Source: Beverwykella pulmonaria (Eukaryota > Ascomycota > Dothideomycetes > Pleosporales > Melanommataceae). From it: 64,000 nucleotides of DNA. The stretch lies in NCBI GenBank assembly GCA_001599595.1, contig BCHH01000003.1, positions 2,354,263 to 2,418,262 on the forward strand, read 5' to 3'. The notes under the pieces are model-generated. The model worked only from the letters and a program-made list of their open reading frames with translations. It did no database searches and was not told the origin of the DNA. The position numbers and the translations under genes were made by a program. Shown one piece after another: positions 10,830-51,682 of this stretch. Within the stretch, counting starts at the first letter, position 1, and every line of letters starts with the position of its first letter.

Positions 10830-13800
10830 TCACCAGGATCCAGGTTTTCTCCCACAAAACCAGACTCCATGCAAAACAAACGGCGCCCAATGGTACGGTC
10901 TCGAAGTACTCTCTCTCCTCCTGATCTCCAGAACAGTATGCTGAAGCGCCTTCGCGAGATTCACAATTGGCCCCAATTCTGTCCTATCCACAGGTCCTAG
11001 AAAGTGATCGTAAAATATTTGTGTGAATAATCGGCCAGTGGTGGATTTAATGGGCCATAGAGCACCAATGACTGATGTGGCCCCGCCGAGGAGGAAAGAT
11101 GAAAGCAAGCCGAGGGGCTCGTCTCCGGAAAGGGAGAAGTCCTGCACGCCACCAGAGCAGGCGACAAGAGTTATATGTGCGGCATCGAGGTCGAGAGAGG
11201 TTATGGAAGGGATGGTAAGGGATTGCTGTGGTGGGCCCAGTGCTAGGCATTGGTGGAACGGTGAATCAGGATCGGAGATGCCATGACCATGGAAATGGAT
11301 AAGCTTGGAGCTTCTGGATACTTGCTTAAAGCTGTCCTCTGTGGCTTCATTTCCCAGAATTGGAGCACAGTCTAAGTCATTTGCTAACGATTTGAGGGAT
11401 TTGTAGATCTCAGCCCTCTCGACTATGGTATCGGGCCTCGTGGAAGCATCGTCGTACGCCCCAAATATCGCAGCTTTCCACTCTTTTGGTACAGAAGCTC
11501 CAGGCTCGGGGGCTGCAAGGCGCTGGAGACAGTTGAAAAGGACAGTATGGGAAGGCACGTACACAATTGGATTGCGTTCGATTAAAGGGTTAGCATCCAG
11601 GAGGACCGCATGTAACGGCACATTGTGAAGAGGTGCTGTTGGTGACAGGATTAAGATGTCGTCTTTGCTAGAGCAGTCTTTTAGCGGCCGGATGACTGGT
11701 AAGAATGGCTGGAGGTATCTTTCAGCATCATCGTAGTTCATTCGGCGTTCGTCGATTCTCTCTGCCGCAGCCTTAAGCTCCTCAAGGGATGTTTCAACCT
11801 CGACCATTTCGCGGTTTGCAACGGGTCCATCGTCATCTCTTCCCATACAAAAGGAGAAGAACAAGATTTTGGTTGGGGATAGGCTAAAAGTAGTCCAATC
11901 GACGAATATAAGCTTGATCGTGGAGGCAGATTGAACAAACTGTAAATCCTCAAATGATAATGGACTACTAGCTGGAATTTTCTGCATGAGCGCTGAAGTT
12001 CTGAATACCTTCGAGAATCCTCGAGCTTTCCGTCTCTGGATCCATTTCCAAGTCAGATTCTTCTCTTCGAGGCCAAAAGCAAGTTCGAGAGCGATATCGA
12101 AGTACAGCTGCTCCATTTCGGAAGTAAAGTAAGCCTGTGAAGCAGCTAAAATCTTCGACATGTCTTGGACGTCACTTTTGTCTCTTGTTTCTTGCTCGAT
12201 TTTGTCTTTGAGTTCGAAGGCTTGCTCGAGGCATTCGAGCACTAGTTTTGATGCCTGCTCCATGGACGAGATTCCTGCGATGTCCTGGAACTGCTGGAGT
12301 TTCGGGGTATCGAAGTCCCTCAAGAAATAGAAAATCATGGCCTTCACACAGAGGGCTTCCCCGTGTTTGATAGCAATACTCTCTCTTGCGAAGATGCGGA
12401 TATGTTCATTCAACTGGTTGAGTGTTCGCTTGAATGTCTGTAGATTCTCGTTTTGTAGCGAGAAAAGAAGCGTCTGGAGCCAAGAGCTGCGGCTAAAACT
12501 ACGCTGAGAGGTTGTGTTGTCATCGATGGCCGGAGTTGGTATCGTTGACTGCTTTGGAAATTGTTCATCGACGAGAAGCGAAGCCGATGCCTTTAAAAAA
12601 GCAATCTCGTACTTTACGAATGCATTCTCAGCTTTCTTGTCAACGTTGTCCGACCCCATTTCAGCTTCCTGTAATATTTCTCTCACTTCGGTAAGAACAT
12701 CCTCTGAGTCCTCTTCTTGGAGTCTTCCTAGCTCTACGAGTGCTTCGGCCAGCAAGAGTTGTTTCTCGACCAAGGAACCATACCACAGCTTTACCTTGTC
12801 GGTTTTTATACCTCTTCTGAGTTGTGAACACACGCCTTCCAACAGTTCCATGCGCATGCTTTCTGAAGTACGATATGGCTGTAGAAGCGTTTGGAGTCTG
12901 ATATTCTCAGCCAACGACTGTTCTTGCTCAGTTCTGTATTTCTTGCAATGCTCCAGATACTTCTCTGCATGATACAAAGCATCTTCTCGCTGATGCAGCA
13001 TGAAATATTCCGCCCACTGTCGTTTGTGGAAACGTCGGAAGTAAGGGAATTTGGTTGATAGCGGCGAAGTCAACAGTTCATTCCGTCGAGTTCGTGCCGA
13101 AGCAAAATTGCTAGTTGAAGCGTTGAGAAAGTCGCAGTATCGGAACTCGATGAGTGTATGGGTCAAAACATCTCCACTGGCGTCCCAAACTACTCTTAGA
13201 GAGTCATGGATTTGGTGGCCGAAAGTCGTCGCTTCAGAGATTTCGGGAAGAATTTCTGCAAGTTCAGCAGCATATTCTAGAGCTTGGGAGGACATGTTGC
13301 AATCCTCAAGCTCCTGAAGTGTAGTGGATAAATGAATAAGCTCGCGCACTCTCTCTGCCTTGGTGCTGCTCCCCCCAATGAATCTCAGCCTGACCATCCG
13401 GCAGTATATCTTCGCAACATCTAGCTCTTCATCAAGAGACTCTTCAAGAGGGTCAATAATTCCTTGCACATCCTCCAGGTTTCCTTTCAGAGCCAATACC
13501 CTAGCTAGGCTAAGCATGCAGATGATGAGGGCAAGGTTTTTTTCCGCCACCAAGTATGATGCGAGACTTTCAAGCTGTGGCTCAGGGCTCTCGATAAAAT
13601 GCTCAAGAATTTGGAGAACTTCGTAGTATAAGCCTGATTTAGTGAGCTGGAGAATAAGTTTCTGCAGGAAAGGCCTGTCGCAAGTGATTCCTGGATCGTC
13701 GATCCCGTCTCCATAGAGCCGCCAGAAGTAGTGGACTTCCACGCAATAGTATAGAATCAATAGCTTCGAAAGTTAGCCGCGTAGACGTTACAAAAACGAC

Positions 13801-20565: not shown

Positions 20566-21413
20566 CATGGGGCGAGTTGATAATACTATTGTTGCATACA
20601 ACGTACAGTTTCTAATTGGTGATCTAAGCTACGTCTGTATCACTAATGGCTGTGGCAACTGCATTTTGAATGGCAGGTTGCGCAACTCTGGCGACTCTAG
20701 CGACCGGCGCGACTCTGGCGAACGACGCAACTCCGGTGATCAACGCCACCTGACGGTGGATTGACGGTCAAATTTTTTTGAGTGGCGTGAATATGGCTAA
20801 TCGGCTGGTTGCCCTGGTCGCCGGCTGGCAACCACATTCCTTACAAACTCGGGTAGGAATTGCGAATGTACTTTTCCTTCCTGAGGAAGGTAACTAAGGT
20901 AGATCTAGTAGGTTAGTTCTTAAGGTATAAGTAAAGACGGAGATCAACAGTGCGATACTAAGACAGTGAAGAGGTAAGCTTTCTAAAAAGAGTATTTAAT
21001 CAAGTAGTAACTAATGTATTGCTAATTATTGTCTAAGGTTGAGCACAGCCTACTATAAGGGGTATTTTGTGCAAACTATATACATATACTGATGCGATAC
21101 AAGGAGCTCACTTGGCTCAGTGGTTGGTTCAGGATACAGCTCAGCCGACTGCTTGGCGCGAGGGCGCTCGAATCCCACCAGTCGGCTTGGCTTTTTGACC
21201 AGTCGACTAAGCTGTAGTCTCAATCCTTTCTCTGGAATGCGTTGCCCTGGTTCGGTCCCTTGTCGCATTCCAAGCCCACAACTTTCTTTCTCCCTCGGCA
21301 TGGCACGTGAGGCTTAGAAGCCCTATCGTCTCTTCGTTCCTCAAGTCATGGACCTACACAAACCCTACCTGTAGCAAGGGCGAGTCTGTATTCGAGTCCT
21401 AGATTTACAACCA
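20566..21413. other. intergenic; short Arg/Asn/Ser/Gly-type tandem repeat and a tRNA-like stretch
   Basis: At about 20690-20755 four imperfect 15-bp units (CGCAACTCTGGCGA-like) occur in tandem. At 21109-21195 there is a tRNA-like hairpin, listed separately. Nothing else is supportable. Confidence 0.5.
21109..21195 (+). other. tRNA-derived or SINE-like relic
   Basis: The stretch has an A-box-like TGGCTCAGTGG, a B-box-like GCTCGAATCCC about 50 nt later, and a T5 run just after, as in Pol III genes. CAGCCGACTG and CAGTCGGCTT flank the B box as a 9-bp inverted repeat. T-stem pairing is poor (at least two mismatches), so it is not a working tRNA. It could be a tRNA-derived SINE or chance. Confidence 0.3.
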
Positions 21414-23279
21414 ATGCAGAACGGGGTTCTAGAATGCACCATTAGCACTGTGGATGTTTCCGAAGGGGGATACCAGGCACTGTCATACGAATGGGGCGGC
21501 TCAGAAACTCCGTTCAAAATAACAATTCGGGACGAAAAGGAAGGTCAGTTGAAGCACATACCTGTGACGGAGAACCTCCACAGCGCGCTTCAAGACCTTC
21601 ATGACTCCCCGGCGTTGTGTTCCAAGAGGTTTTGGATTGACCAAATATGCATCAACCAACAGGACGATCACGAAAAGGGACAGCAGGTTGCCGTGATGAC
21701 GAAGGTCTATCACAACGCGTCGCAGGTCATCACTTACCTCGGCTCACGATCGGATGACGCAGAAATGGAGGACAGAGCCCTAGAACTCATCGATCGCCTC
21801 GCCAAACACTTTAAACCGAACTTTGATGTCTTCACGGAAAGATCAAGCCGGGAGTTGTGGGCAGACCGTAGCTTGCTCCCAATTCGGGGGCTTCCAGACG
21901 ACATCACTGAGAACGACTCAGGCTGGCTAGCCGTCTTACGAATCGTCTACGGTGGATGGCTTCGACGGTTGTGGATGTTACAGGAGAACATCCTATGTCC
22001 GAAAACAATTATGCTCCGAGGTCCCAATATGCTCAAATGGTCGTCTGTGGCTGTCATTCCGTTCCTCTTTATCCACGGATGCCTACCTCTCAGGCTGTTG
22101 CATCGACACTGGCCTAAACTAGCCTTCAAAATCTCTCCAAGACAGACCTACTTTGCTGTCAGAGAAATGTGGTTACTGCGAGCCCAAATTTACAGCCGTC
22201 TCGGACCACGCACTTCGTTTAACAAACTAGAGCACAACCTGATGGGTTATACTTATCTGGCTTGCAAAGAACCGAGGGATCACATATATGCTCTGCTTGG
22301 AATATCTTCGGATACTGATGAGCTAGGTATTGTGCCAGACTACGAGTGTTCGGATTTGACGGTGTTCATGGACCTGACGATGCGTATTTTCAAGAAAGAT
22401 ACAGGGGGCCTATCCTTCCTTCGTCAGCTGGGCTTAATCGACAACCACGACCCGACTATCATTCAACTCCCTTCATGGATATATCGTCCGGGGAAGGTCG
22501 TGGAAGGAATTCTCTACCCTCATCGCCCCCACCCAACGGTTCGACCGAGTTGCAGATTTGATACAGGCCTCACATTGGTCCTACAGGGTAGAATAATCGA
22601 CCGTATCGAGTTCACGACGCCTGCTGTTCCTTATCCTGACCCTGATGATGACGAGGATGATCCCCTGTGCGATGAATGGGCTAAGGCGTTCAGGCAATTT
22701 TTATCCAATGTTGCAGCAATTCTCGAACACCGGGGGGTCACATTAGAGAGTATGGCAACTGTTTTTCATGCCCTCATATGTGAAACCCCCAACTCCACGA
22801 CACTGTTGGATGCCTCGTATCAGCTATGGTGTTACTTCGCTCGCTTTGCGCAAAGGTTACTCGAATACGTTGATACCAAACGTAATAGAGAGCAACCATA
22901 CTGCGAAAACGTCGCCCTGGCGCTCTTGAAACTTGGGAACGCCCTAAAGGAGGCAGGTAAGGTTGTCTACGAGGACCTCAATCATGCGACCAATCGCAAC
23001 TTGAGAGAGCTCACGGAGTCAACGATGGCCAATGCAGTGGACCTTGGACGATCACTTAGTATTTCTGAAAAGGAGAGAGTTTGTAACACAACTGGTAAGG
23101 CGCAGATAGGGGACATGATTGCGCTGCTCGCTGGTGGTGATTCTGCATATGTGCTTAGACCCGTTCACAGTGGTATGTATCGGTACGTTGGCACTGCTTA
23201 CATGCCAGGGTTCATGGACGGAGAAGCCTATGAGGGCGTATCGCCCGAGACAGTAGATGTTGATATTAGGCTTATATAG
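21414..23279 (+). CDS. HET-domain (heterokaryon incompatibility) protein
   Basis: 621 residues, single exon, ATG at 21414. HET proteins trigger cell death after fusion of genetically different hyphae, and act in the cytoplasm. Seen in order: YQALSYEWGG (HET block 1, residues about 21-30), RFWIDQICINQQDDHEKGQQ (block 2, about 73-92), HNASQVITYLG, WLRRLWMLQENIL (block 3, the R-x-W-x-x-Q-E motif), then EPRDHIYALLGIS and the usual C-terminal trailer ending CNTTGKAQIGDMIALLAGGD and a G-x-x-Y-x-x-V segment. The domain starts very near the N-terminus, so a short 5' exon upstream may be missing. No NACHT, WD40 or ankyrin effector domain is attached. An acidic loop (DPDDDEDD) sits near residue 407. 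Confidence 0.93.
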   Translation: MQNGVLECTISTVDVSEGGYQALSYEWGGSETPFKITIRDEKEGQLKHIPVTENLHSALQDLHDSPALCSKRFWIDQICINQQDDHEKGQQVAVMTKVYHNASQVITYLGSRSDDAEMEDRALELIDRLAKHFKPNFDVFTERSSRELWADRSLLPIRGLPDDITENDSGWLAVLRIVYGGWLRRLWMLQENILCPKTIMLRGPNMLKWSSVAVIPFLFIHGCLPLRLLHRHWPKLAFKISPRQTYFAVREMWLLRAQIYSRLGPRTSFNKLEHNLMGYTYLACKEPRDHIYALLGISSDTDELGIVPDYECSDLTVFMDLTMRIFKKDTGGLSFLRQLGLIDNHDPTIIQLPSWIYRPGKVVEGILYPHRPHPTVRPSCRFDTGLTLVLQGRIIDRIEFTTPAVPYPDPDDDEDDPLCDEWAKAFRQFLSNVAAILEHRGVTLESMATVFHALICETPNSTTLLDASYQLWCYFARFAQRLLEYVDTKRNREQPYCENVALALLKLGNALKEAGKVVYEDLNHATNRNLRELTESTMANAVDLGRSLSISEKERVCNTTGKAQIGDMIALLAGGDSAYVLRPVHSGMYRYVGTAYMPGFMDGEAYEGVSPETVDVDIRLI

Positions 23280-26345: not shown

Positions 26346-26519
26346 CTATATACAGTCCCGATTACCTGATCCTTCTGTTCTGTGGCTGAGCGGTCGCACA
26401 GCCTCAGGCATCCAAGTATCATATCTATTAAGAACAGCAGTTCCACCAGCTTGCAGTGCAATTCTAATAACAAACCGCAGGATTCAAATACCAAGCTCTA
26501 CACTTTCCATCCAACAACT

Positions 26520-27854
26520 ATGCGCCTAATAAACGCCTCCACCCTCCGCCTCGAAAACTTCCACGAATCCTCCGTCCCACGCTACGCCATCCTGTCACAT
26601 ACCTGGGGGCCCAGCGAAATAACATACAACGAGCTGCGCAAGCTAAAAATGACACTCGTAAACGCGCGCATCCGGATCAAAGCAAAAGCCGGGTACTACA
26701 AAATCACACAATGCTGCTTGCAGGCGCTGCGGGATAATCTGCAATACGTGTGGGTGGACACGTGCTGTATCGACAAAAACAGCAGCGCGGAGCTTTCGGA
26801 GGCGATAAATTCCATGTTTAGATGGTACAAGAATGCAGTGGTGTGTTATGCGTATCTCGATGACATCGACATTTTTGATCCGATGAGAAGCGGTGAGATA
26901 GCGTTTGCGAAGGGCGACCCCAAGCGATTCTGGGCCCAAAACATCGATCTGCTCAGCGAGAAGGATTTATCCAAGGCGAGATGGTTTAAGAGGGGCTGGA
27001 CGCTACAGGAACTCATTGCGCCCGAAAACGTAATGTTCTACATCAAGGGCTGGAACTATGTCGGAAATAAGGTTAGCATGAAGGAGAAGCTGGCGCGTAT
27101 CACGGGTATCGATGAAGCGACGCTCGTATCTCGGAATCTTGAAGCCGTCAGTGTAGCGAGGAGAATGTCATGGGCGTCTAGGAGAGTTACGACGAGGTTG
27201 GAAGACCTGGCGTACTGTTTGCTAGGCATCTTCGACGTGAACATGCCGTTGCTATACGGCGAAGGAGAGAAGGCGTTTGTTCGGCTACAGGAAGAGATCA
27301 TGAAGGACTCCGAAGACCAGTCACTATTTGCGTGGAGACCACCAAACGTGACAGAGGCTTGCGACCTCGATCTCGATCTCGTCGTGCCTATGGCTGAGGG
27401 AGAGGGCCGTTCAGTGTTCGCACAACATCCGAGTGAGTTTGCAGACTCGAGTGCAGTGCGTCAATCATCCTCGCGAGGAGAACCGTACACTTTGACAAAC
27501 AAAGGAGTGAGAATGGAGATCCCGATACTTCCCTTGGATCGGGGTCTCTTCCTGCTTATTCTCGAATGCAACTATGAAGGGGACATAAGCCAGCGGCTCA
27601 GCATCGTCGTTCAGAAGCTCCATGGAGGTAGCGCGAACCAGTTCGTTCGGCATGACTTGGTGGGCCCGGCAAAGGTCGGTCATGAAATGATCCAGACAGC
27701 AGAGCTCAGCACTGTGTATCTCTGCAAGAAGGTGCCGCGCGCCAAAGACATTTCTCCTGCGTTAAAACTTTTGTCTTCATGTCGGCCTCGACAGGCCGAG
27801 GAGATGAGCTTAGCCTCTAGTAGTACGCTGACTGCGGATGACAATGTTCAATGA
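26520..27854 (+). CDS. HET-domain protein (source of the two broken copies)
   Basis: 444 residues, single exon. The frame is open from a GTG at 26382; the ATG at 26520 (MRLINASTLRLENF) is the family's standard start. In order: RLINASTLRLENFHES, YAILSHTWG (residues about 24-32), a conserved GYYKI-x-x-C-x-x-AL segment, YVWVDTCCIDKNSSAELSEA (about 76-95), INSMFRWYKNAVVCYAYLDD, ARWFKRGWTLQELIAPENV, then RLEDLAYCLLGIFDVNMPLL and YGEGEKAFVRLQEEI. These are the hallmarks of HET-D/HET-E-type N-termini. No NACHT-WD40 region follows; the last ~130 residues are a divergent tail. Three near-copies of its middle in 7 kb show that this locus has been duplicated and broken repeatedly. Confidence 0.93.
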   Translation: MRLINASTLRLENFHESSVPRYAILSHTWGPSEITYNELRKLKMTLVNARIRIKAKAGYYKITQCCLQALRDNLQYVWVDTCCIDKNSSAELSEAINSMFRWYKNAVVCYAYLDDIDIFDPMRSGEIAFAKGDPKRFWAQNIDLLSEKDLSKARWFKRGWTLQELIAPENVMFYIKGWNYVGNKVSMKEKLARITGIDEATLVSRNLEAVSVARRMSWASRRVTTRLEDLAYCLLGIFDVNMPLLYGEGEKAFVRLQEEIMKDSEDQSLFAWRPPNVTEACDLDLDLVVPMAEGEGRSVFAQHPSEFADSSAVRQSSSRGEPYTLTNKGVRMEIPILPLDRGLFLLILECNYEGDISQRLSIVVQKLHGGSANQFVRHDLVGPAKVGHEMIQTAELSTVYLCKKVPRAKDISPALKLLSSCRPRQAEEMSLASSSTLTADDNVQ

Positions 27855-42504: not shown

Positions 42505-43103
42505 GGTGGTTTCCCCCTGCCATTCGGAGGAGCGGATTGAGAGAAGGGAGCGGAGAGTTGTATGATTCCCATAATCGGGTGGACTGGGCTGGATGGATTA
42601 GGGGCGTTCTTGTTTGGACGGATTCTAGGCTTCTTTGCGATGTGATACCAGGACTACCGGATGGAGTTTTTTTTGGGTTGGGTATTGGGTTTTGGGGGAT
42701 CTTGATTGTTAGCAAGCGTGCATGCATTTCTGCGGCGTACAACGGCTGTCTTCTAACGAATTTACTTTGTACTATTTACGAATAAAATCAAGATACCAGA
42801 GCATTTAGGACGAAGGTTGTTGGTATCATCGAAGATATTTTGTCTGAGGAATGGAGTGACGATGGTGATGTAGTGAGTGATGTCTGTTTGCTCAAAGAGC
42901 TTGATGGCTATGGACATCAGAGAACCTAATCCTTTGCTGGCCCCGCGCAACTCCATAGCCCCCACCCCACTTTCCAACTAGCCAACTACCCCGCATAGAG
43001 CGGAATTGTCTTCCAGGCATCCCTTTAAGCTTTAATGACGTCCGCTCACTTTACCTGTTCTCTATATTAATACTTTATTTAGCTCCCCGTTTCATAATTA
43101 CCT
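42505..43103. other. intergenic
   Basis: Convergent-type 3' region followed by the tRNA upstream flank. No gene is seen. Confidence 0.5.
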
Positions 43104-43240
43104 GGTTCGGTGGTGTAGTTGGTTATCACGTCAGTCTAACATTCGTTAGTGCACTGAAGGTCCCGGGTTCAAGTAAGTCGAAACAATCAACCAACAAATC
43201 CATATGGAAATACTAACAGAACTAGACCCCGGCTGAATCA
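43104..43240 (+). tRNA. tRNA-Val(AAC) with two interruptions
   Basis: Removing two inserts leaves a 74-nt tRNA. The acceptor stem GGTTCGG/CTGAATC pairs over 7 bp (two G-U), with discriminator A. The anticodon stem is TCAGT/ACTGA with loop C-T-AAC-A-C. The variable loop is AGGTC and the T-stem CCGGG/CCCGG has loop TTCAAAC. The first insert, 43142-43151 (TTCGTTAGTG), sits just 3' of position 37, the canonical site, and its GTTAG can pair with the anticodon region CTAAC. The second, 43173-43225 (53 nt), splits the T-loop after TTCAA. It starts GTAAGT, has TACTAAC 15 nt from its end and ends CTAG, so it has all the signals of a spliceosomal intron. A T5 Pol III terminator follows at 43248-43252. 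The second insert also interrupts the B box. The gene is either processed by an unusual route or inactive. Confidence 0.88.
43173..43225 (+). other. mRNA-type intron inside the tRNA-Val T-loop
   Basis: 53 nt with a GTAAGT donor, TACTAAC branch point and CTAG acceptor; length and signals are those of protein-coding introns in this window (for example H4 intron 2, 53 nt). Exact excision restores a standard T-arm (TTCAA + AC between CCGGG and CCCGG), which fixes both boundaries. Confidence 0.85.
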
Positions 43241-45205
43241 TGATTACTTTTTGCCCACTTCTTTAAGCTTACTTATGTGCAAATTGTAAAAAAGCCTTTC
43301 CGAATATCTGTTGCGTTTTGTTTTTAAGAAGGGAGAAAAACTTTGTAACGGAGTCTTGAGAAATAACAGGAGAGAGAATTTTCCGCCCAATTGCTTGTCA
43401 AGTGCGGTGTTTCAATAACAGAGTAGAATTTTACCTAATTTTAGAAACGTCTTGTTAGCTATTGCATTTCTATTGAATCTTTCTTGCTCTACGTTCTTTA
43501 AGTAGCTTCGAATTAGATATTCTCTAAACTAGTAGACCACCTAGTTACAGGTGTTCTCGCGGAGCTTGAGGTTAATTTGAACATGGACAACGCGAGTGGT
43601 GGGTCCCGTCGAAATGAATATCATCCGTTGAATATCTGCTACGGCAGATAGCTAGGTGGGAAGCGGAATCGATTACTTAGAGCGGTAGTTATCGGAGGAC
43701 ATATAGTACTTCTTTCACTGCACTACGACTACTTGGTCGCCACTCCACCACGAATACTACCATGAACACTTGCAAGTATCAAAAATTTCAGTAAAGCCAT
43801 GAGTGTATTGGGTTCTTAAAGTCCGCTATAGCAACACAGTTGCACGGGCTGTGAAGGGGTTATGGTGTGGTAACACTAGTGCATACAGACGTTCTAGTTT
43901 TGTAGGGTCCGCCGTCATGGTATAGTTGTGCGGGCGGTGAAGCATTGTGGTCTAACAACAATGAAGGTGGATGATTTGGTTCGCAAGGTCCAACACTTGC
44001 AAGAGTGCTGCTTTGATTTCCCAAGAATCTGCCCTGGGAGTAGCGCTGCGCGGGTCCAAGATGTTGTTGCATGATGATACTTGTGAAAAGAGATGTTTTG
44101 ATCTCGTATAATCCGCCGTGATAGACCTGGCGCCAGGATTAGAAATGTCGTTGTAGTCTGTATGGCAATCCGTAAGTACCATAGACGCTGGGCTTGTCCG
44201 ATGAGCGCCTAACTCAGATGCGGAGACTGTGAAACGCAGGGATGAGTTTTCGCGATCGTGAAAAGGATTCGCGGATGGTTAAGTACGTGGGAATTGTCCA
44301 CGGGTACAGAATCATGTCTGCCAATGATCGAAAGACTGGGGCAATCTGCCGAGGGTTGTACTGTGACGCGTTTTCATCTATGGGCTACTGAAAGTAGAGA
44401 GCATTTGTAGTATACCAGTATAGTGATGTCAATGATGGTGGAGCTCCGCGTAGAATGACTGGTCGAGCGGTGCAGTCGAAGAGATGAAAATGCTGTGTTG
44501 TACTTTGGGGAGCCGAGAGGTGAATGCAACAGTTCGCCATCGCCTGGATAAAAGAACTTGGCGAGTTGAGAAATGATGCCCAAGTTTAAAAAATTCTATA
44601 CTCAATGCGAGGCTCCACGCTTTTACATTCTGGTCCGCTTACACCCTGTTTGCATCGCGAATTTGGTATCGTGAACTGCAAAAGCGAGGTATGGGTATGA
44701 ATGATTCCTTGTCACCTAGGTAGATATAATTGGCGGAGAGAGCAATGGCAGAACCAGACGATGGCAAGAGATTCTCGAAAGTGTGTAGACTGCGCAAAAT
44801 ATGGAGTGCCGTTAGTACAAGAGTTGGGGCTTGTCGTTACAACCACGGCTACTTGTCAGGGAGTGAGTATTTTTTATTGGAGAGATTCACTAGAGTGGAG
44901 GTATCGCTATAGCCTCGAATGGAATGGGGAAAAGCACGTCCGCAAGCATTCCTCATTGATGTATACATCCTGCTTAGTTCCCGCATTAAAACACTAAGCT
45001 TCACCTTGTCCATCCCCATGGCACAGAGCTATCAATGTAAGCCAGCACGAAGATGTGTACGTCTAGGCTCTAGCCTTGCCCTTGCCCTTTGACAGGCGCT
45101 TCGTCACCACCGCATGTCCCGACGTCTCCTCCTCCGCATCGGGACTTCTTCGCGGATAGCATCTTGCTCTCCTTCATCTGCGCTCTCTATATGATCAGAC
45201 TCGAG
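43241..45205. other. 2 kb without a supportable gene
   Basis: Short frames on both strands only. The imperfect motif TGTTG(T/C).. / GTGCGGGC(G/T)GTGAAG recurs around 43840-43945 (CACGGGCTGTGAAGGGGTTATGGTGTGGT versus TGCGGGCGGTGAAGCATTGTGGT in parts), a weak local repeat. Confidence 0.4.
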
Positions 45206-47750: not shown

Positions 47751-50683
47751 GGCCGCGATGTGCTAATTTGGAATGATGTTATCTGGTTTGTACAGCACCA
47801 TAGTGCGCTTGGAAGGGTTGTCAACAGAATTTATGGTCTTCACAAAGGCAGAAAACAGGTGGCATGGTTCCCCTCCAGAACATACCACTCTTTAATCCCC
47901 TCACCCAACCCGACGTGATTCGCTTCTTGATGCCACAGCAAGCCACAGTAGCAGCCTTCTTCAGTTTTGTACCAGTCAACATCGAAAACAATCAGCCACT
48001 GAACGCCACACACAACACTATTTTCGAAAATGTCTATCACATTCTCATGAGCAGCGATATTATCAGGAGACCGTCACACTTTCTTCACCCTTCCATCAGA
48101 AGATAAGCTGAAATGCAAATGGTGGGTGAATTGGGTGACTTATAGCTGATCCACTACCTCTGCTCACCTCAGTGCTCACTGCTGAGGTTATTCCTAAGCT
48201 GGCAAGTAGGGCCAATCCCTAGAGGAACACATTGCATTTTTCACTTATCCTACCTCTCATTGGCTAAGCAGATGAAAGTGAACTTTACGCAGTTTTAGTT
48301 CAAAGAAAGGTGGCTATATGAAACGAAGAATAAGCAAGGGTGAGTTTTGGGATGAAAACCAAGATATATATGTATTAATATATATCTTTGGTCTAAGCCC
48401 AAGTTTCTGTGGCACTAGATATATGTAGGCTACAGCATGAATATCATCTTACAATGACTTCAGACAAATTTGTGACAAAGGCGTTCCTACTTGGTTGACC
48501 CTGTTTCGCATCCTTTCTTGCCTAGGTAGTCTAGGACAGAATCGATTTCATTATGTCTGCAGACACCCTAAGGTCCCCCTAAATAAAGCATTGCATCTTT
48601 CTTCTTGCAACCTCATTCTGTATATTAGGTATCGCAAATATGTACTTGTATACTTGAGTGAAGAAATCTTTCAATGGGAGCGAGGAGTGGCCAGATGTGT
48701 AACATCACTTGAAACAAGCCCAAGAAGGCTGAATATCTTGTCCCAGGGGTTTGAACACGCCTGGTGTGCGGATTGCAATATCAAAGAGCTCAAGGTGAAT
48801 GCCGTACCCTGTTCTTCCCACCATCGTTCTCTCTCTTTCACTAGGGTCATCCACTCTGCTTGATCATGGAAAGCGCTTAGTCATGGGTTTTTAGTTTGAT
48901 TCATACCCTCCGTCGAGAGCTCAGCGGCTACGCTTTGTACATTGTACCAGGGCATGAGCTCATCTCCCCAAACAACGAGAATGTCACAGGCGAGGTTCAC
49001 CTCCTCCATAGTCCATAGCCGTCTCCAATGGTTACAGTCAGTGAAGGATTCCAGAATGAATCAACTCTGCTGGTGATAATAGGGAGTATGATGATAATAT
49101 ACTGTAAGTGCTTAAAGTGGCCGTTTCGTTTGGGCTTCATGGCCCAAGCCATGTAATGATAAAGTGAGGGTTGGAATAGATTTTCTTCATCAGTCCTACT
49201 TGATAGTCGTGCTCAAGAACGTCCGTCTGATCGATACGGATTGACTCGGTCTAAAAGGACTCGCATTGAGACATGTCATCGCTTCTTTGTTGAAAGTAGA
49301 AGAGTCTTATCTCCAATATTTCTCTGTTCAGAGGCGTGGAACTATAGTTGTGATTCAATTCATATCCCGCAATATTATTCCCCATATTCGTGTAGTCTTC
49401 ATGGACTTCGAAACCACGCGATCTAAATTGGGAAAGCTTGGAGGGTGGCATCTCTAGAAGAATAAAATCGGGAACAGTGGTGGTGATACGATGAAGTTTA
49501 GACTAGATTTGGGAGCCTTCAAGAGCCTTATGTATGATTAGACGAGGTATGAAGATGGCATAATCGACAATGTTATGCACTTGTAGTAGGTTGAAGCCAG
49601 GAGCATAGCTAGTATCCTGCACATGCAGGGATCCTTCACATTCGATGTGCTCAGGTCTGAAGCTGCCTATTATACAGCATATTCCCATATCTAATGAGAG
49701 TTATCGGATTTTAGGCACATCACAAGAGAATTAAGTCTGCCCTAATAAACCTAACTGTTATCTGCTAGCACACCTTTTACAACGTCCTACAGATCCTTCT
49801 AGACGCAACCCCCTTAATCTTATCTGATGTGAAAACAGGCAGTAAAGTAAAAAGCGAAATTAGTGGTATATCTAAACCTTGAACTTTCACATAGAGAAAG
49901 AAGAGAAAAGAACGAGAGTAGAAAATATGTTTGATGCAAGTTCAAACACACTGACCTCGGTATCTCTTGGCATTACAAATAAAAGATTTTATACTTGCCA
50001 AATTTCGCGACTTCATGGCCATCGCGCGTCCTCCCTCTATATCTCCATCATGAGAAAAGAGGGATTGAAATAGAGATACAAAGTGTGTCTGACAGGAGCT
50101 CAGATATGCTAACAGATGTATAACTAAGCATAAACTAATTAACACCTAACTTATTTGACTTCGCGACATCTTTCCTCCCACATCCATATCATAGATGAAC
50201 GCCGTGCAGCATGGGATGCGAGGCCCACGGCGGCCTTCCAGCACACGAAGATTACCTACCTTAGTATCTGTTTCAGGCTCCACAAGTCGCATTTGTGCCG
50301 ACCCTACCAACGGACCAATTTTGTTTCCTAACCCTGGCAGAAATGAGGACCGCGGCGATCATACATATGCTCATTTGAGCGGCTCGCCTTCAAAACTTTT
50401 ACAAGCTAGTGAGCTTATCAGATGGCCTTCGTGGCTCCGCTTCCGCTGTCCGCCGTTTTGTTTAGATTCAAATTCATGTTTCATTTCAAGTCAGAGCTTG
50501 GCATTATGCCTGAGGCTGGGCTTCAGCATATCCCTATTTATGCCCAAATCCTCAAATTCATGGTGAGCCACGTTGGGAATATTTGTTCCATTTCGCTCGT
50601 TCGTTTCTTTGGTGTCTTAGGATCCCCATTTTCCATTCCTTCAAATCATCAAGCCTACAACTCCCCTTCTTTCATAGCACAGG
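47751..50683. other. 2.9 kb without a supportable gene
   Basis: AT-rich. A hairpin-prone AAGATATATAT / ATATATATCTT inverted repeat lies at 48361-48388. Overlapping short frames on both strands at 49240-49690 cannot be told apart and show no motif. The last ~200 nt are the promoter and leader of the DUF1996 gene. Confidence 0.45.
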
Positions 50684-51682
50684 ATGCCTTCTATCACTTC
50701 TTTCGGTGCCGCCCTGTGGAGCAGCGGCTTCGTGGTGCACGTGGCCCATGCTTACACTCAGGTCAACGTCGCTTCTCCCTTCATGTACAAGAACATTGAC
50801 CCCATCGTCTTCCCCGGTCAGTACGACAAATCCCATCTACACTCGTTCTACGGATCGGATGCCGTGACGATCAACACGAACACCAGCGCCGAGCTGCAGA
50901 AGGGCTGCACCAACGCCGAGAACCCGAACGATTTGTCAGTGTACTGGACACCTACACTGTTATACCAAAGCGGCAACTCTTGGGAACCCGTGCCCGTCAT
51001 GCGCTTCAGCGCGTATTACAGCCTGGGCGACACCAAAGCTGAAGTCCCGATTCCACAGAACCTCAAGATGGTGGCCGGCATTGCTACTGCCACGACGGCG
51101 GATGCCATGGATGCCGACGCTCATAGCGAGTGGTTTTGTGAGGGAGGGGGCGGCGGGTCGGCGGACGCAAACGGCTTTCCCAGCAGCACCTGCAGTACGC
51201 ACATGCAGCAACTGCTGTACTTCCCCAATTGTGTCAACACAGACACGCTAGAGACAGGCTACAAGGCCGGCCAACCAGGCAACTACAAAGCCTGCCCGGA
51301 TGGCATGAGAGGCATGCCACAGCTGCGCTTTTCCATCCGATACGATCTCCGCAAGGTGCTCCCCGACGGCTGGAGCGGTACCGCACCGCTGCAACTAGCC
51401 TGCGGTAACACCTTTTGCAGCCACGGAGACTTCATCAACGGCTGGACTGAGGAGGCCGCTCAGAACATGGTTGAAGCCACCAGCTCCAAGAACACATTTG
51501 CAGCTGTTGACGGCAGTTTGGGCAACAATGGCGTCGAACCTACGTGCACGTCTGTTGATGCAGATCCTGACCACGGCACAAGCGACTACGCAGAGAGTGT
51601 TGCGGCTATGAGCAAAAGGTCTGCCCCTGCTCTTGGTTGGATATCTAGGAGCAGGCTAGCTCGAAGCCCTCGCGCTAAGTGA
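50684..51682 (+). CDS. secreted DUF1996 protein
   Basis: 332 residues, single exon, ATG at 50684. The N-terminus (MPSITSFGAALWSSGFVVHV, then AHA) is a signal peptide. DUF1996 landmarks follow: DPIVFPGQYDKSHLHSFYGS near residue 38, NDLSVYWTPTLLYQ, VMRFSAYYSLGD, LLYFPNCVNTDTLETGYKAG, MPQLRFSIRYDLRKVLPDGW and the closing FCSHGDFINGWTEEAAQNMV. These proteins are abundant in fungi, extracellular or wall-associated, of unknown activity; the conserved H-x-H-S-F-x-G motif suggests metal or carbohydrate contact (inference). The last ~50 residues are a basic Ser/Arg tail with no carbohydrate-binding WSC domain attached. Confidence 0.93.
   Translation: MPSITSFGAALWSSGFVVHVAHAYTQVNVASPFMYKNIDPIVFPGQYDKSHLHSFYGSDAVTINTNTSAELQKGCTNAENPNDLSVYWTPTLLYQSGNSWEPVPVMRFSAYYSLGDTKAEVPIPQNLKMVAGIATATTADAMDADAHSEWFCEGGGGGSADANGFPSSTCSTHMQQLLYFPNCVNTDTLETGYKAGQPGNYKACPDGMRGMPQLRFSIRYDLRKVLPDGWSGTAPLQLACGNTFCSHGDFINGWTEEAAQNMVEATSSKNTFAAVDGSLGNNGVEPTCTSVDADPDHGTSDYAESVAAMSKRSAPALGWISRSRLARSPRAK

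Follow-up and report, generated by a model that had tools for sequence, protein, structure and literature searches.

Textbooks keep tRNA splicing and the mRNA-splicing machinery separate. Ordinary eukaryotic tRNA introns lie at position 37/38, have no splice-site consensus and are cut by a protein endonuclease; mRNA-type introns are known from the nuclear rDNA of fungi, where they resemble the case described here in interrupting stable RNA genes but differ in that the RNA concerned is a Pol I rRNA. A 2026 review also sets tRNA splicing apart from the spliceosome (PMC13149111). Fungal U3 snoRNA genes carry GT-AG introns with an RCTRAY branch motif in the vast majority of the Pezizomycotina analysed, and according to the same source, from 2017, no small structured RNAs besides U3 and U6 were known to contain an intron frequently (PMC5832005). 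The U6 snRNA gene of fission yeast and other fungi contains a U2-type intron, which has been attributed to reverse splicing close to the catalytic site (PMC10484740). Non-canonical tRNA introns are described as rare in eukaryotes; the examples come from nucleomorphs and from the red alga Cyanidioschyzon, which have them in the D arm, in the T arm and elsewhere, with up to three per gene (PMC4090602).

The window analysed here, a stretch of 64,000 nucleotides from the ascomycete Beverwykella pulmonaria (contig BCHH01000003.1, positions 2,354,263 to 2,418,262), contains a tRNA-Val(AAC) gene at 43104-43240 of the plus strand, in which two introns can be read directly from the sequence. An earlier note had described them as a 10-nt anticodon-loop intron and a 53-nt insert in the T-loop, which is correct to the base, and had proposed that the latter is an mRNA-type intron within a Pol III gene. 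The proposal is supported by the recurrence of the same arrangement in 23 further tRNA genes. Judged from its sequence, the insert very probably is a spliceosomal intron of the U2 type that interrupts a live Pol III tRNA gene. At least 24 tRNA genes would carry such introns, at least 29 in all, besides one in the U6 gene, and the spliceosome would have to process the transcripts of all these genes. The locus is like U6 in that a U2-type intron resides in a small structured Pol III RNA; U6, however, is part of the spliceosome, which tRNAs are not, and here tens of genes are hit. The introns of U3, alike in their GT-AG ends, are confined to one RNA family. Those of Cyanidioschyzon share the unusual positions but form bulge-helix-bulge structures, those of Guillardia measure 3-24 nt, and the section describing them mentions neither GT-AG ends nor a branch site (PMC4090602). 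Ordinary 37/38 introns are present here too, in the window gene and in many others. Among the entries listed in searches of an open-access library, none describes tRNA genes with spliceosomal introns. Taken together with the rarity of non-canonical tRNA introns in reviews and with the statement on U3 and U6, this suggests that we are dealing with a known intron class in a gene class where it was previously not known.

Excision of the 53-nt insert rebuilds the standard T arm of tRNA-Val (CCGGG-TTCAAAC-CCCGG), as the earlier note had claimed, and ARAGORN then calls a tRNA-Val(aac) with a 10-nt intron (Table 1). The ends of the insert cannot be slid, since a single placement is possible, and 174 of 2,000,000 random segments of 47-58 nt from the window satisfy even a looser form of its motifs. 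In the unspliced sequence, ARAGORN calls no tRNA anywhere in the window, nor any in the locus L001 when introns of up to 150 nt are permitted, and an Rfam search of the unspliced window gives no tRNA at the gathering score. Interrupted genes of this kind are thus missed by tRNA finders.

Table 1. Features of the interrupted tRNA-Val(AAC) gene; positions are those of the window.
Feature	Position	Strand	Basis
TATA-like element TATATTAA, 41 nt upstream of tRNA-Val	43063..43070	+	sequence
Exon 1, to position 37, with A box and anticodon AAC	43104..43141	+	sequence; ARAGORN on spliced gene
Ordinary 10-nt tRNA intron at 37/38, tRNA-endonuclease type	43142..43151	+	ARAGORN i(40,10) on spliced gene; without GT-AG
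Exon 2, positions 38-58, 3' end GGGTTCAA = 5' part of B box	43152..43172	+	sequence
53-nt GT-AG spliceosomal-type intron in the T-loop, site 58/59 (after A58)	43173..43225	+	sequence; ARAGORN on spliced gene
5' splice site GTAAGT	43173..43178	+	sequence
Branch site TACTAAC, inferred branch A at 43216, 9 nt from intron end	43211..43217	+	sequence
3' splice site AG (CTAG)	43224..43225	+	sequence
Exon 3, positions 59-73, discriminator A at 43240	43226..43240	+	sequence; ARAGORN on spliced gene
T5, Pol III terminator-like	43248..43252	+	sequence

A look at the other tRNA genes of the genome, which the earlier note had put forward as a check, extends the single case to a genome-wide one. In 45.6 Mb on 31 contigs we found at least 24 tRNA genes with 29 spliceosomal-type inserts at about ten sites, with up to three inserts per gene and a distribution over 12 contigs. 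Thirteen of these genes were first discovered without a search for splice motifs and 11 through splice-motif patterns. The Rfam tRNA search of the genome (39 matches with E values of up to 10, from 63 scored candidates out of 1174), in which splice motifs are not used, returned 28 uninterrupted genes and ten interrupted ones, namely Ser(GCT), His, Leu(CAG), two Leu(TAA), Trp, Cys, two Ala(AGC) and Leu(TAG). A tRNA-like match with an odd anticodon arm at L038:146-215 (minus strand), also among its results, was left outside any assigned tRNA. Uninterrupted genes (L125, L127) were missed by this search as well.

The splice-motif pattern GGTTCRAGTRNGT occurs at 30 places, compared with 42 in the backward control, and hence shows no bulk enrichment; 12 of the places are tRNA genes, eight of them new (nine recognized by ARAGORN after splicing, three first by eye). 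For the pattern CTAACN{2,22}AGTTCRANYC there are 24 places against 32 in the control, five of which are tRNA genes, including three new ones. The A-box pattern TRGYNYARTGGTANNRYK, which requires D-arm sequence only and is blind to introns further 3', fits 11 of the 28 tRNA sequences tried and hence covers part of the tRNA families; it gave 33 places against 20 in the control, and the 17 tRNA genes among them, nine interrupted and eight not, added one interrupted gene (Gly-3). In total, the tRNA genes recognized number 24 with and 30 without an interruption (the latter being the 28 from Rfam, L125 and, by eye, L127), a ratio that depends on the route of discovery. Genes for tRNA-Phe, tRNA-Tyr, elongator tRNA-Met and some other tRNAs are absent from the matches of these general searches, none of which was family-specific; those for Phe, Tyr and elongator Met may be interrupted too.

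Numbered by eye, the introns in the T arm fall at 58/59 (n=13), 53/54 (n=6) and 52/53 (n=1); the others lie in the variable arm (1), in the D arm and D loop (5), at 25/26 (1) and in the acceptor stem at 6/7 (2), and 0 of the 29 spliceosomal-type introns are located at 37/38. Both Leu(TAA) genes (L037 and L040) share the acceptor-stem site, with the intron following six exon bases. Two Asp(GTC) genes and one Arg(ACG) gene contain two introns each, and a tRNA-Thr(TGT) gene (L092; G000:C10:425220 region) combines three GT-AG introns with a 13-nt anticodon-loop intron and thus has four. When the intron ends were set by eye, with GT-AG expected beforehand, 28 of 29 introns were GT-AG and one was GC-AG, each with exactly one GT/GC-AG placement, and position +5 is a G in all 29. 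The GC-AG intron (GCAAGT together with CTTACTAAC) belongs to a tRNA-Leu(TAG) gene (L042; G000:C1:909262-909408). Of the 29 introns, 28 contain an NTRAY branch motif that lies 8-14 nt before the 3' end (CTAAC in 13, CTAAT in eight, others in seven); intron 1 of the tRNA-Thr(TGT) gene is without a standard branch motif. Lengths are 47-58 nt in 28 introns and 72 nt in one. This motif rule is followed by 12 of 12 first introns in genes found without splice motifs (one being the window gene), by four of five further introns unprompted by a motif search, and also by Gly-3, the A-box find. After splicing, ARAGORN reads all 24 genes as tRNAs with a restored cloverleaf; its anticodon differs from the assigned one in five (Val-2, Arg-2, Asp-1 and both Leu(TAA) genes), since several placements of the anticodon-loop intron are possible. 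Introns at 53/54 end in AG and leave AGTTCRA before the last exon, a sequence that comes near to a B box, and those at 58/59 leave GGTTCRA. The B box core is largely retained at T-arm introns, to which we give no weight, since most of these cases were found by patterns that demand it.

Chaperonin genes of the same genome served for comparison. Six of their eight gaps are GT-AG introns of 49, 49, 52, 55, 58 and 160 nt (a small sample determined by eye, with the reading frame checked for one), five of which are within the length range of the tRNA inserts. A further 17 introns in coding context were selected by motif and length and therefore cannot test likeness in size or motif. Runs of at least four T occur in two of 28 tRNA-gene introns; shuffled sequences predict 6.8, and a count as low appeared in 0.9% of the shuffles. 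Three of the 17 coding-context introns contain such runs, and the difference from the tRNA-gene introns has p = 0.35. No T5 is present in any of the 29 spliceosomal-type introns, and T4 is present in two. A genome-wide search with the window intron alone as a query for introners found no other match. Group I and group II self-splicing introns, with hundreds of nucleotides and a catalytic fold, are not matched by inserts of 47-72 nt.

The search for intact tRNA-Val(AAC) copies, likewise proposed in the earlier note, was run with joined exons and found two genes only, both interrupted and at different sites. The second gene (L002; C3:1019454) is located about 1.38 Mb from the first on the same contig, and its insert reads CCCGG/GTTAGT...TTAAC...ACAG/GTTCAAACC. 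Joined-exon searches also found three Gly(GCC) genes, whose matches break at position 56, and one Trp gene, all interrupted. Since the Asp search detected a third, diverged Asp gene of 75% identity without spliceosomal-type introns, intact copies of Val(AAC), Gly(GCC) and Trp should have shown up within the sensitivity of this approach. The same search missed the two Asp genes that are cut in pieces, and any tRNA may therefore have additional interrupted copies. Under the usual decoding rules, the tRNAs for Val(AAC), Gly(GCC) and Trp are indispensable.

Comparison of paralogs revealed constant exons next to diverged introns. The three Gly(GCC) genes have identical exons (the 37/38 intron apart), and the extra introns of Gly-1 and Gly-2 are 59% alike (shuffled 49%). 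Exons are also identical in the two interrupted Ala(AGC) genes, with same-site introns 61% alike, and, again apart from the 37/38 intron, in the two interrupted Asp genes, with introns 75% and 71% alike; the exons of the two Leu(TAA) genes are one base apart and their introns 60% alike. Uninterrupted copies exist for Ala(AGC), Ser(GCT), Lys(CTT) and Asp(GTC). Two Lys(CTT) genes (L020 and L094) agree in all 102 bases that make up the exons and a 29-nt anticodon-loop intron; what sets them apart is an exact GT-AG intron at 53/54. An uninterrupted Ala(AGC) gene (L009) has exons identical to those of the two interrupted copies, and the Ser(GCT) genes with and without insert are one base apart. A T5 is found within 20 nt downstream in 24 of 24 interrupted and 25 of 28 uninterrupted genes (random 1.4%), and a TATA-like element upstream in 21 of 24 and 20 of 28, respectively (random 5.2%; for Gly-3, 42 nt of upstream sequence were available). 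In the case of L127, an uninterrupted gene recognized solely by eye, the 20 nt past the end contain no T5.

The U6 snRNA gene of the same genome (L033:1501-1650; G000:C3:4042637) contains a 55-nt GT-AG intron at L033:1570-1624 in the context GATGACA/GTAAGT...ACTAAC...CAG/CGCTC; farther downstream, past the T run of the gene, lies a B-box-like GGTTCGAATC. Given this intron, the organism seems to depend on splicing a Pol III transcript in any case. From these features we infer a pathway, including the order of its steps, in which Pol III would transcribe the pre-tRNA from a start below the TATA-like element to the T5 terminator, the spliceosome would remove the GT-AG intron or introns and the tRNA endonuclease the anticodon-loop intron, and the tRNA would fold normally after both removals.

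The earlier note had left two outcomes for the insert, that it is still removed or that it disables this copy. Removal is much better supported, since no intact Val(AAC) copy was found, paralog exons stayed constant while introns diverged, and TATA-like elements and T5 terminators are retained; that the spliceosome performs it is what the motifs suggest. Dead tRNA copies, with other copies serving the cell, would agree with the treatment of most D- and T-arm insertions in eukaryotic tRNA genes as pseudogenes (PMC4090602) and with the uninterrupted copies of Ala(AGC), Ser(GCT), Lys(CTT) and Asp(GTC). This account was rejected and has very little probability left, given that no uninterrupted gene for Val(AAC), Gly(GCC) or Trp was found, that exons are unchanged and that T5 is present in 24 of 24 genes. 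A slightly larger, still very small probability goes to non-canonical tRNA introns for which the tRNA splicing endonuclease would do the cutting and tRNA ligase the joining, as happens in Cyanidioschyzon and perhaps in cryptophyte nucleomorphs. The enzyme must be active here, since many genes carry 37/38 introns, and the eukaryotic enzyme has no strict bulge-helix-bulge requirement; the red alga and the nucleomorphs offer a precedent for introns in the D and T arms, with as many as three in one gene (PMC4090602). Ordinary 37/38 introns are common in this genome, differ or are absent among the paralogs of Asp(GTC) and Gly(GCC) (L067, L052, L074), and of those examined by eye none starts with GT and ends with AG. 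The inserts, in contrast, avoid 37/38, and none of the 29 junctions matched a bulge-helix-bulge together with its flanking helices in a simple test run without positive control (random 2.9%), a structure that the earlier note had named as speaking against a spliceosomal intron. GT-AG ends, G at +5, a branch motif and near-constant length are unneeded by an endonuclease. We therefore rejected this enzyme as a poor candidate, the consensus being that of the spliceosome.

Spliceosomal splicing is normally coupled to Pol II transcripts, and the interrupted tRNAs might accordingly be made inside such transcripts, spliced like mRNA and trimmed by RNase P and tRNase Z, the more so as introns at 58/59 and in the D arm interrupt the internal B or A box. 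We consider this unlikely, if a little less remote than cutting by the endonuclease, because the T5 terminators and TATA-like elements of the interrupted genes occur as in uninterrupted ones, and no intron contains T5. Moreover, fission yeast provides a known example of a U6 precursor that is spliced (PMC10484740). An assembly artefact, the other objection raised in the earlier note, or chance has no finding in its favor and is practically negligible in view of 24 genes on 12 contigs with base-exact structures and of the low rate of the motifs in random segments, and the artefact was rejected on the grounds of this recurrence.

If the inserts are spliceosomal introns of live genes, mRNA-type introns in tRNA genes at such a scale would break the divide between tRNAs and the spliceosome, and their presence suggests that the tRNA supply has been made dependent on the spliceosome. 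We hold it reasonably likely that the spliceosome is an obligatory tRNA-maturation enzyme in this fungus, where about half of the tRNA genes, among them each gene found for Val(AAC), Gly(GCC) and Trp, would be interrupted by between one and three spliceosomal introns, so that translation would depend on both spliceosome and tRNA endonuclease, and that the hot spots at 53/54 and 58/59, common to unrelated tRNAs, arose from repeated insertion into tRNA, plausibly by reverse splicing. Presence and absence among paralogs, compared within one genome, are compatible with gain or loss. Paralogs with identical exons, with and without intron, constitute a natural set of gains or losses for testing the origin of introns, for example by reverse splicing into abundant RNAs.

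For 5S rRNA, 29 matches were obtained, 23 of them above the cut-off, and all are full length (120-121 nt) by their coordinates, in a search that scored 47 of 2265 candidates and that an interrupted 5S gene could escape. Elsewhere in the window, the protein encoded at 50678-51679 (DUF1996) has its best named relative in Lophium mytilinum (a Dothideomycete of the Mytilinidiales; 82% identity). Two neighboring genes with HET (heterokaryon incompatibility) domains are located at 21375-23276 and 26370-27851, and a CHAT-domain gene at 10833-13772 on the minus strand (Pfam).
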